Below are positions 6,853 to 10,679 of a stretch of 35,716 nt of DNA, piece by piece (the first letter of the stretch is position 1; each line of letters opens with the position of its first letter). Below the pieces are notes generated by a model. The model was not told the DNA's origin and ran no database searches. It saw only the letters and a list, made by a program, of their open reading frames with translations. This DNA comes from Reyranella sp. Its GTDB lineage: Bacteria; Pseudomonadota; Alphaproteobacteria; Reyranellales; Reyranellaceae. The translations under genes and the position numbers were made by a program. The DNA lies in the NCBI GenBank assembly GCA_030679805.1, contig JAUXST010000488.1, forward strand, positions 1 to 35,716, written 5' to 3'.

Positions 6853-7773
6853 GTGACCATGACCCTGACACGCTCCGCCTTCCTCGTGACCATCGGCGCC
6901 GCTGTGTTGACCGCGGGGCGGAGTGTTGCCCAGACAGCTTCGGGAGCACGCATGCATCAACGCAAGATTCCGTCGAATGGCGAGTTGCTGCCCGTCGTCG
7001 GCTGCGGCACCTGGCGAACCTTTGATGCCGGCGCCAAGCTGGCGGATCGCGCGCCGCTGGCCGAAGTATTGCGCGTGTTGTTCGATGCCGGCGGCTCGGT
7101 GATCGACACCTCGCCGATGTACGGCGCCGCCGAGGCGGTGGTGGGCGACCTGCTGGCCGCGGCGGGAACGCGCGACAAGGCGTTCCTCGCCACCAAGGTC
7201 TGGACTTCCGGTCGCGATAGCGGCATCGCCCAGATGCGCCAGTCGATGCGGCTGCTCAGGACCGATCGCATCGACCTGATGCAGATCCACAATCTCGTCG
7301 ACTGGCGGGCGCATCTGCCGACACTGCGCGCCTGGAAAGCCGAGGGGCGCATCCGGCTGCTGGGCGTCACCCACTATACGCAAAGCGCCCACGACGAGCT
7401 CGAGGCGGTGCTGCGTGCCGAGAAGTGGGACTTCGTGCAGCTCAACTACGCGCTCGACGATCGCGCCGTCGAACGCCGCCTGCTGCCGCTCGCCGCCGAG
7501 CGCGGCATTGCGGTGCTGGTGAACCAGCCGTTTGGCGGCGGCGGGCTGCTGCGCAAGCTGCTCGGTCGCAAGCTGCCGGACTGGGCCGGCGACATCGGCT
7601 GTACGAGCTGGGCCCAGATCCTGCTGAAGTTCGTCCTGGCAAATCCCGCGGTCACCTGCGTGATCCCCGGCACCGGCAAGCCCGAGCACATGAAGGACAA
7701 TGTGCAGGCGGGCCTCGGTACCTACCCCGACGCTGCAATGCTGAAGAAGATGGTGGCCGAGATCGCCGTCTAG
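6853..7773 (+). CDS. Aldo/keto reductase with N-terminal signal-like sequence
   Basis: MTLTRSAFLVTIGAAVLTAGRSVAQ leader followed by an AKR domain. Catalytic-tetrad candidates: GGSVIDTSPMYG (D, Y), FLATKVW (K), LMQIHNL (H). Confidence 0.85.
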   Translation: MTMTLTRSAFLVTIGAAVLTAGRSVAQTASGARMHQRKIPSNGELLPVVGCGTWRTFDAGAKLADRAPLAEVLRVLFDAGGSVIDTSPMYGAAEAVVGDLLAAAGTRDKAFLATKVWTSGRDSGIAQMRQSMRLLRTDRIDLMQIHNLVDWRAHLPTLRAWKAEGRIRLLGVTHYTQSAHDELEAVLRAEKWDFVQLNYALDDRAVERRLLPLAAERGIAVLVNQPFGGGGLLRKLLGRKLPDWAGDIGCTSWAQILLKFVLANPAVTCVIPGTGKPEHMKDNVQAGLGTYPDAAMLKKMVAEIAV

Positions 7774-7800
7774 AGTCATTCCGGACGAGGTTGAATCATA

Positions 7801-8041
7801 TCCCTCCCCATTCAGATCTATAGGATTCACACATCTTTTCGGGTGTCGTTTTCCAGCTCGATCCAACACCAACCTCATGCTGAGGAGCGCCCCTTGGGCG
7901 CGTCTCGAAGCATGGGAAACAGACGCGGTGCTCGTTCCCATGCTTCGAGACGGCCCTTCGGGCCTCCTCAGCATGAGGTTGGGTGGGAAACCGACACTCG
8001 AAGAGATGTGTAAATACGATAGCCATTCAGATGGGGAGGAA
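7801..8041. repeat. ~240 bp imperfect palindromic (inverted-repeat) intergenic element
   Basis: 7871-7918 AACCTCATGCTGAGGAGCGCCCCTTGGGCGCGTCTCGAAGCATGGGAA is inverted at 7935-7980 (reverse complement AACCTCATGCTGAGGAGGCCCGAAGGGCCGTCTCGAAGCATGGGAA). Outer parts also pair: CCTCCCCAT...TTCACACATCTTTTCGGGTGTCG versus reverse complement CCTCCCCAT...TTTACACATCTCTTCGAGTGTCG. Confidence 0.85.
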
Positions 8042-8079
8042 CAGCTTGCCTTCATCGACACCGGAAGGACCCTAGCCGA

Positions 8080-9162
8080 TCAGAGTAGTCCCAGCGTGAG
8101 CTGGGGCGGCGCGGGCACCTCGTCGCGCCGGTGAAGGTTGTGCAGCGAGACGCCGAGCAGCCGCACTTTCTTTTCCAGGGGAAATATGGATCGCACCAGC
8201 TCAACGCTGACGCGCTCCAGCATGGCCTTGTCGGCCGGCGATTCGAGCAGGGTGCGGCTGCGCGTCACGATCTGGAAGTCGGCGTATTTGATCTTCACCG
8301 TCACCGTCCGGCCGGCGATGCCGTTCTTCTCGCAGTAGCTCCAGACATCCTCGAGCACCGAGGCGATCCCGGCCTCAACGTCCGCCGGGCGATCGAGGTC
8401 CTGCATGAAGGTCGTCTCCGACCCGACCGACTTGCGCGGCCGGTTGGGGACGACCTGGCGATGGTCCTGGCCACGGGCGATGGCATGGTAGTAGGGCCCT
8501 GATTTGCCGAAGTACTCCTGCAGGAGTTCGAGGGTCTGCGCCTTGAGGTCGGCCCCGGTATGGATGCCGAGGCGCTTCATCTTGGCCTCCGTTGCCGGGC
8601 CGACACCATGAAACCTGCCCACGGGCAGGCCCTCGACGAAGGCCGGTCCCTTCTCCGGCGGAATGACGTATTGCCCGTCGGGCTTGCGGTGATCCGACGC
8701 CAGCTTGGCCAGGAACTTGTTGTAGGAGATGCCGGCCGAGGCGGTGAGGCCCGTCTGTTCGAGGATCCGGGCGCGGATCTCGCGCGCGATCTCCGAGGCC
8801 AGCGGCATGCCCTTGAGATTGTTGGTGACGTCGAGATAGGCCTCGTCGAGCGACAACGGCTCCACCAGCGGCGTGTAGTCGAGAAAGATGGCGCGGATCT
8901 GGCGCGACACTTCCTTGTAGACGTCGAAGCGCGGCTTCACGAACACCAGTTCGGCGCACATCCGCTTCGCCGTGGCTGACGGCATGGCCGAGCGCACGCC
9001 GAACTTGCGCGCCTCATAGCTTGCCGCCATGACCACGCCGCGTTCGCGGCCGCCCACTGCCACGGGCCGGCCGCGCAGCGCGGGGTCGTCGCGCTGCTCC
9101 ACGGACGCGTAGAAGGCGTCCATGTCGACGTGGATGATCTTGCGGATCGCTGCTTCCGCCAT
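8080..9162 (-). CDS. dinB: DNA polymerase IV (Y-family)
   Basis: MAEAAIRKIIHVDMDAFYASVEQRDDPALRGRPVAVGG, YTPLVEPLSLDEAYLDVT, ASAGISYNKFLAKLASDHRKPDGQYVI. Confidence 0.96.
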   Translation of the reverse strand: MAEAAIRKIIHVDMDAFYASVEQRDDPALRGRPVAVGGRERGVVMAASYEARKFGVRSAMPSATAKRMCAELVFVKPRFDVYKEVSRQIRAIFLDYTPLVEPLSLDEAYLDVTNNLKGMPLASEIAREIRARILEQTGLTASAGISYNKFLAKLASDHRKPDGQYVIPPEKGPAFVEGLPVGRFHGVGPATEAKMKRLGIHTGADLKAQTLELLQEYFGKSGPYYHAIARGQDHRQVVPNRPRKSVGSETTFMQDLDRPADVEAGIASVLEDVWSYCEKNGIAGRTVTVKIKYADFQIVTRSRTLLESPADKAMLERVSVELVRSIFPLEKKVRLLGVSLHNLHRRDEVPAPPQLTLGLL

Positions 9163-9197
9163 GACGCCAGTATAGGAGAGTTCGGGCGGGAAGCGCC

Positions 9198-10679
9198 TCA
9201 GCGCTTGCTGAGGCCGCCGATCGGCACCGGCGGCGGCAGGTCGGCGTCGCGCCAGCCGCCGCCCAGCGCCTTCACCAGGTTGGCGCTGGCGACCAGACGG
9301 CTTTGCCGGATGTTCAGCAGGGTCTGCTCGGCCGACAGCGCCGCCGTCTGGGTCTGCACCACGGTCGTGTAGGGCACGGTGCCGATCCGGTACTGGTTGA
9401 GCGACAGCCGCTCGGCCTCGCGGGCGGACGCGACCGCGGCGCGCTGGACCTGCTCCTGCTGCACGAGGATGCGCTGCTGGGCGAGGGCATCCTCGACCTG
9501 CTGAAAGGCGGTCAGCACGGTCTGGCGGTAGGTCGCCACGGTATTGTCGTAGCCCGCCCGAGCACCTTCGACCTGGGCAGCACGCGCGCCACCGTCGATC
9601 AGCGTCGCGGCCAGCTGCGGGCCGAGCGACCACACCGACGAGCCAAGCTGAAGCAGCGTCCCTAGCCCGCCGCTCAGGAAGGTGATGGCGCCCCCCAGCG
9701 AGATGCTGGGATAGTAGGCCGCCTGGGCCACGCCGATCTTGGCGTTGGCCGACGCCATCAGCCGCTCGGCCGCGGCAACGTCGGGCCGCCGTTCCAGCAG
9801 CGCCGACGGCACGCCGGCGTCGACCGTCGGCACGTCCGCCGGCGGCGTCCCGGGCTCGAGACTGAACTCGGCGGGCGCCTTGCCGATCAGCACGGCGATC
9901 GCGTGCTCGTACTGCGCGCGCGCGATGCCCTCGGCGACCAGAAGCGACCGCGCCTGCTCATAGAGGGTCTGCGCCTGGGCGAGATCGACGCGGGAGGCGA
10001 TGCCGGCATCGACCTGGTTGCGGGCGATCTGCAGGGAACGCGCGTAGGCCGCCACCGTCGCTTCGTAGAGCCGGGTCCGCTGGTCGGAGACCCGCAGCGA
10101 GAAATAGTTGATGGCGACGTCGGCCTGGGCCGACAGACGCGCCGCCGCAAGATCGCCGGCGCTGGCCTGGGCCGCCGCCGAATCGCTTTCGATGGTGCGA
10201 CGGATGCTGCCCCAGACGTCGATCTCCCAGGCAAGCACGAAGCCGCCCTGATACTGGCTCGCAGTACTGGTGATGTTGCCGTTCTGGCTCTGGGTGACGA
10301 CGGCGGTGGTGCTGCCGCCACCGCCGCGCAGAGCGCCCGTTCCGGTCTGCTGCGCGCTGGCGTTCGCCGTGATTCCTGGATAGAGGCCCGACTGGTCCTG
10401 GCGAACGAGCGCGCGCGCCTGACGATAGGCCGCTTCGGACGCCTTCAGCGTCTGGTTGGAGATGTCCACCTGGGCCGCCAGCCGGTCGAGCGTCGGATCT
10501 CCGTAGATCTGCCACCACGGCCCGCGATCGACCGTGTCGTTGGGCATCGCCGGACGGAAGCCCATGGTTTCCTTGAATTCGGGCGTCGGCGGCGAGGCCG
10601 GCGGTGGCTGCTGGTAGTCCGGCCCGACCAGACACCCCGACAACGATGCCAGGCAAAGCAGGACCGCGAGCCGCCTCAT
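9198..10679 (-). CDS. Efflux RND transporter outer-membrane subunit, NodT/OprM-type lipoprotein
   Basis: Lipobox [28 protein letters not shown] repeats (INYFSLRVSDQRTRLYEATVAAYARSLQIARNQVDAGIASRVDLAQAQTLYEQ). Confidence 0.93.
   Translation of the reverse strand: MRRLAVLLCLASLSGCLVGPDYQQPPPASPPTPEFKETMGFRPAMPNDTVDRGPWWQIYGDPTLDRLAAQVDISNQTLKASEAAYRQARALVRQDQSGLYPGITANASAQQTGTGALRGGGGSTTAVVTQSQNGNITSTASQYQGGFVLAWEIDVWGSIRRTIESDSAAAQASAGDLAAARLSAQADVAINYFSLRVSDQRTRLYEATVAAYARSLQIARNQVDAGIASRVDLAQAQTLYEQARSLLVAEGIARAQYEHAIAVLIGKAPAEFSLEPGTPPADVPTVDAGVPSALLERRPDVAAAERLMASANAKIGVAQAAYYPSISLGGAITFLSGGLGTLLQLGSSVWSLGPQLAATLIDGGARAAQVEGARAGYDNTVATYRQTVLTAFQQVEDALAQQRILVQQEQVQRAAVASAREAERLSLNQYRIGTVPYTTVVQTQTAALSAEQTLLNIRQSRLVASANLVKALGGGWRDADLPPPVPIGGLSKR

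Follow-up and report, generated by a model that had tools for sequence, protein, structure and literature searches.

Why does practically all of the intergenic DNA between two convergent genes of a Reyranella-type genome fold back on itself? The window, a stretch of 35,716 nucleotides, is contig C84 of this genome. An aldo-keto reductase gene (6853-7773, plus strand) faces an ORF containing DNA polymerase IV (dinB; 8080-9633, minus strand); the gene ends at 7773 and 8080 are those given in the first-pass annotation. In the listed dinB ORF, about 155 N-terminal residues are surplus, and because homology to Pol IV begins only near residue 161, the gene probably starts at the internal MAEAAIRK. 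The large imperfect palindrome reported in the first-pass annotation is real. Folding of 7795-8045 gave -154.8 kcal/mol, whereas shuffled sequences averaged -78.8 (sd 5.0; z-score -15.1), and none of 200 shuffles was as good. The inverted arms placed there earlier were also recovered, with two arm pairs (7869-7887/7964-7982 and 7901-7918/7935-7952) being 100% complementary. The limits first assigned to the palindrome, 7801 and 8041, were too narrow, however: it is prolonged via TAGAGTCATTCCGG (from 7771) and CCGGAAGGACCCTA (to 8074), and both ends of the true extent, 7771-8074, are insertion boundaries.

The region is very probably a nest of non-autonomous mobile elements, in which four dispersed layers were built up stepwise. 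The earlier suggestion of a MITE-like element was right as to the dispersed, MITE kind of the DNA but not as to a single element, as two nested inverted-repeat elements, a hairpin and a REP dimer were distinguished, and each mobile layer has its own boundaries and duplication. An Rfam scan gave chance matches only, under the gathering scores of the families. A literature search using the letters of the repeat returned primer coincidences only, and no paper joining Reyranella, intergenic repeats and transposable elements was found.

The outermost layer (level 1) is a non-autonomous element of 300 bp (7773-8072) with the ends GAGTCATTCCGG and GGGTCCTTCCGG, delimited by filled and empty sites and by a dispersed TIR motif. 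Copies of the duplicated TA lie at 7771-7772, in CTAG 7770-7773, and at 8073-8074, in CTAG 8072-8075; the left one belongs to the aldo-keto reductase stop codon, TAG, which is the insertion target and is regenerated. The junction is empty in two relatives, reading ctcTAGgccggTCA in L035 and gtcTAGgcctgcTCA in L038 (a gtcTAG-type stop, then gccgg(TCA) and gcctgc(TCA), respectively), with the convergent dinB stop only 5-6 bases past the TAG stop. The window has the same stop codon, then the insert, then CTAGcCGATCA. The comparison of empty and filled sites thus indicates a 300-bp insert at CTAG with TA, or possibly the four bases YTAR, duplicated. Variation in the duplicated target is greater at the outer than at the inner bases, but the inner ones were set by the search patterns.

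The consensus form of the outer-element ends is GRGTCNTTCCG (short form GAGTCTTTCCGA). The end motif CTAGRGTCNTTCCGR was present in 33 of 65 genus genomes, well above the reversed-pattern control, and paired copies of about 165-195 bp were found in nine of the 65. The sample was drawn partly with a pattern requiring CTAG and partly with a pattern lacking this requirement. The cargo of the 31 paired copies consisted of REP dimers (17), CCTCCCC hairpins (8), and others (6). Both neighbours are known for 29 of these copies, of which 22 sit in convergent and none in divergent gene pairs. In 24 of the 31, a neighbour's stop codon falls exactly on the junction, versus 43 of 173 control CTAG sites; the genes were called with a simple codon-usage model, not a full annotation. 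The element at 7773-8072 has the TA duplication within YTAR/CTAG known from IS630/IS5 MITEs, and a transposase gene between the same inverted repeats was not found among 30 IS630-type (PF13358) and 30 IS5-type (PF13340) Reyranella loci. These elements use TA or YTAR-like targets, often CTAG, and their ends often start with GAG. Derivation from IS630 found no support in the 30 PF13358 loci: the IS630 elements with recognisable ends use CTAG/TA and often start with GAG, but none has GAGTCNTTCCG ends. With regard to an IS5 origin, the ends of some PF13340 loci, e.g. GAGCCTATCCGG, are similar to those of the outer element, not identical. No assembled autonomous copy was reached from the contig ends of G079 that start with the outer TIR.

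With the inner MITE left out, the outer element reduces to an 89-bp shell with one hairpin, CCTCCCCATTCAGATGGGGAGG (level 2). Its left half occupies 7803-7817 and its right half, including the duplicated loop, 8023-8039, as established by sequence comparison and by an uninterrupted 22-bp type at other loci. The same outer element with an uninterrupted hairpin and no MITE is found at another locus, L102 (98 bp, CCTCCCCATTCCGATGGGGAGG). The 22-bp type was also detected outside the outer element (L073, L082, and L083), and such hairpins are common outside the shell.

An IS4-type MITE of 205 bp (7818-8022; level 3) with the ends CTATAGGATTCACACATCT and CTATCGTATTTACACATCT, shared by other copies, sits in the loop of the hairpin repeat. 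It is bordered by a perfect 10-bp direct repeat, CCATTCAGAT, at 7808-7817 and 8023-8032. The element is short, carries no transposase gene, and has inverted ends (CTATMGGATTCACACATCT) matching 17-18 of 19 consensus positions. Duplications of 10-12 bp border 13 of 16 complete IS4-type elements. Genus-wide, an arm of the CCTCC(C)/CCTCTCC type was present at 58 of 68 distinct IS4-type outward flanks, versus 1.35% of random 28-mers. REP-free MITEs of about 168 bp with the same ends were detected in G029, G033, G067, and G068. The window's own genome also has a REP-free IS4-type MITE of 160 bp (L032, contig C698), which lies in a hairpin of the CCTCTCC type and is bordered by a duplication of 11 bp. 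Partial insertion-sequence copies in G017 and G029, truncated where the contigs end, carry near-identical ends. Contig C610 of the window's genome contains an IS4 element with a 455-codon ORF and the ends CTAGGGCATTCACACATG, which are related to the MITE ends, not identical. Its transposase scored 260.7 bits against NF033590 (cut-off 160) and contains Y(2)R(3)E(6)K as signature. The search for a transposase with matching repeats, proposed in the first-pass annotation, gave one with related ends for the IS4-type layer and none for the outer element.

The innermost layer (level 4) is a dimer of REP units, CCTCATGCTGAGGAG..CGTCTCGAAGCATGG. Unit 1 (7873-7915, plus strand), with its CCTC tag outside, was recognized by pattern match, and unit 2 (7938-7978, minus strand), inverted and head-to-head with unit 1, by arm complementarity and pattern match; the spacer is 7916-7937. 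The likeness of the core to the repeat family CCTCATxxTGAGGAG..CGTCTCGAAxxATG, noted at the outset, holds by pattern match. The core is not single-copy, as similarity searches placed it at about 20 more loci of this genome. The REP motif pair occurred in 17 of 289 sampled alphaproteobacterial genomes and never in the reversed control. CGTC-tagged REPs, described in 2013 (PMC3733652), are found mainly in alphaproteobacteria, including Bradyrhizobium and Rhodopseudomonas, and their end tag (CGTC/TGTC/CCTC) is often CCTC. The REP of the window resembles them in the tag (CCTC in both units), the AT stem start (ATGCT..AGCAT), and the head-to-head dimers with tags outside. In contrast to the loop of 4-5 bases and the CCA tail in that paper, it has a GC-hairpin as loop and the tail GG(G). 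Because loop and tail differ, it is called CGTC-like and not a member; odd loops are noted in that paper for Bradyrhizobium CGTC-1.

Taken together, the layers suggest the following assembly. An element with GRGTCNTTCCG ends would first have entered the TA of CTAG at the aldo-keto reductase stop, where the two convergent genes lay only about 5 bases apart. The stop codon is regenerated by the duplicated TA, and therefore neither gene would have been damaged. The outer element would have brought the hairpin CCTCCCC(ATTCAGAT)GGGGAGG, and an IS4-family transposase acting in trans may then have put the 205-bp MITE into the hairpin loop, duplicating 10 bp, with the head-to-head REP dimer already aboard on arrival. 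This order, the outer element and hairpin before the MITE and REP, is inferred from the duplications together with intermediate forms found elsewhere; at this very locus, a relative with an intermediate nesting state was not seen. Spread of the family would likewise have proceeded by transposition in trans. The nesting would have begun at a stop codon, a site at which an insert carries no cost, and continued by repeated transposition of elements into each other. The long palindrome would then be a by-product of symmetrical elements nested on one axis, the inner element favouring the axes of existing hairpins.

The palindrome might instead be maintained as a functional bidirectional transcription barrier between nearly overlapping convergent genes, which is rather unlikely. 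The convergent setting of 22 of the 29 outer elements, with none in a divergent one, speaks in its favour. However, purifying selection alone would give the same pattern if divergent regions, which hold promoters, are avoided and stop codons are the insertion sites. The REP loci of the window's genome are mostly in tandem contexts (8 tandem, 5 convergent, and 2 divergent), and a general preference of all REP dimers for convergent genes was thus not seen. The same junction is filled differently in other species, which speaks for a barrier, although two relatives have nothing there. An independent REP dimer without a MITE shell or a clear target duplication occupies it in L036 (G023), and long near-perfect hairpins, e.g. 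GGGAGCGCGGGCCTCTGGCCCGC..GCGGGCCGGAGGCCCGCGCTCCC, fill the same convergent gap in L051 (G020) and L041 (G032). Such independent palindromes fit tolerance and a useful barrier alike. A search for intrinsic terminators gave none with a clear T-tract across the palindrome, the sole weak match being a 5-pair stem in a REP. On the nest reading, there is probably no strong host function.

It is improbable as well that the REP dimer moved alone, by means of a REP-associated tyrosine transposase, into a palindrome already in place. Sixteen of the 21 examined REP loci in the window's genome lack a MITE shell, and REP dimers inside palindromes are reported for Anabaena variabilis and Halothiobacillus neapolitanus (PMC3733652). 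The proposition that REP dimers are always MITE-borne was ruled out by these shell-free loci, and carriage by MITEs is therefore one route of spread, not the sole one. Against solitary movement here, five complete MITE-plus-REP composites with alignable arms around the dimer were found in three genomes, and the literature ties no transposase to CGTC-type REPs (PMC3733652). Because these five copies share alignable arms, and because the same composite is present elsewhere in this species and in further species of Reyranella, the dimer of the window most likely came inside the MITE.

That the region is a single, non-nested MITE, about 300 bp in length and bounded by long terminal inverted repeats, is very improbable. 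The whole region is indeed palindromic with a target duplication at its ends, and outer ends, hairpin, and MITE are found together once more in the window's genome, in C284. This reading is contradicted because both parts occur separately: the MITE family without the outer element at L067, L069, L080, and L293, and the outer element without the MITE at L093, L102, and L173-L187. Moreover, a perfect 10-bp duplication lies inside, and the C284 copy differs from the window in the hairpin sequence and in what comes after. A dedicated role as a cruciform or recombination site, e.g. in replication or site-specific recombination, is scarcely credible in spite of the very strong self-complementarity, given that presence at the site varies by species and that many dispersed copies have different cargo.

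The nested arrangement has partial counterparts in known systems. ISRm22, a rhizobial IS4-family element, inserts at the palindromy axis of a REP in all nine chromosomal copies (PMC1525189, 2006), and the Reyranella MITE is likewise an IS4-type insertion at the axis of a palindrome. The repeats made by ISRm22 are 6 bp long, whereas duplications made by the Reyranella family span 10-12 bp; this family is directed to hairpins of the CCTCC(C)..GGGGAGG kind and includes MITE derivatives with REPs as cargo. Target duplications near 10 bp and the Y(2)R(3)E(6)K motif of the transposase agree with the IS4 family (PMC2266710, 2008). Insertion at CTAG or YTAA is shared with MITEPsy1 of Pseudomonas syringae (PMC3189936); unlike the outer element, MITEPsy1 is 100 bp long, has other ends, is reported to duplicate 4 nt, and has no palindromic cargo described. 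In contrast to the CGTC-tagged REPs of PMC3733652, the Reyranella dimers also travel in MITEs of two different families.

As far as the literature shows, each layer is of a known kind, and the new features are the fourfold nest, the carriage of REP dimers by MITE shells of two unrelated kinds, and the preference of the outer family for stop codons exactly at the junction. CGTC-type REPs have been reported without an associated transposase, which puts their route of spread in question; here, they are found as MITE cargo, and one of the two REP-carrying shells can be assigned to a named transposase family. It is tentatively proposed that MITE shells of at least two transposon families serve as a regular vehicle for transposase-less REP dimers, that the stop-codon CTAG target lets convergent junctions be filled harmlessly, and that palindromes pile up on one axis via loop insertions. 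The exact stop-codon insertion of the outer family at convergent genes offers a clean, testable case of harmless targeting. The locus also serves as a warning that a long intergenic palindrome need not be one functional unit.

Several further observations concern individual copies. Named records containing the outer element are nearly all from Reyranella, and these congeners are the ones covered by the searches; it also occurs in records titled Methylocystaceae bacterium FeB_33 (L209) and Rhizobium sp. Q54 (L210). The name of the L210 record looks wrong, judging from its correspondence to contig C364 of the congener G084. A bare shell, GAGTCTTTCCGACGGCGTCGGAAAGACTC, in which the two outer ends stand almost back to back with nearly no cargo, was found at L098 (G064) and is possibly a product of excision or deletion. 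An additional small palindrome, reading GGGCGGGGGTTACCCCGCCC or nearly so, lies within a REP unit of the dimer at L018 (C585), L016 (C359), and L012 (C757) of the window's own genome and at L071 of G084, and might represent a fifth layer. Another small palindrome, GGCGCATTCACATGCGCC, was observed within a REP unit of the IS4-type MITE at L070 and L266 (G075).
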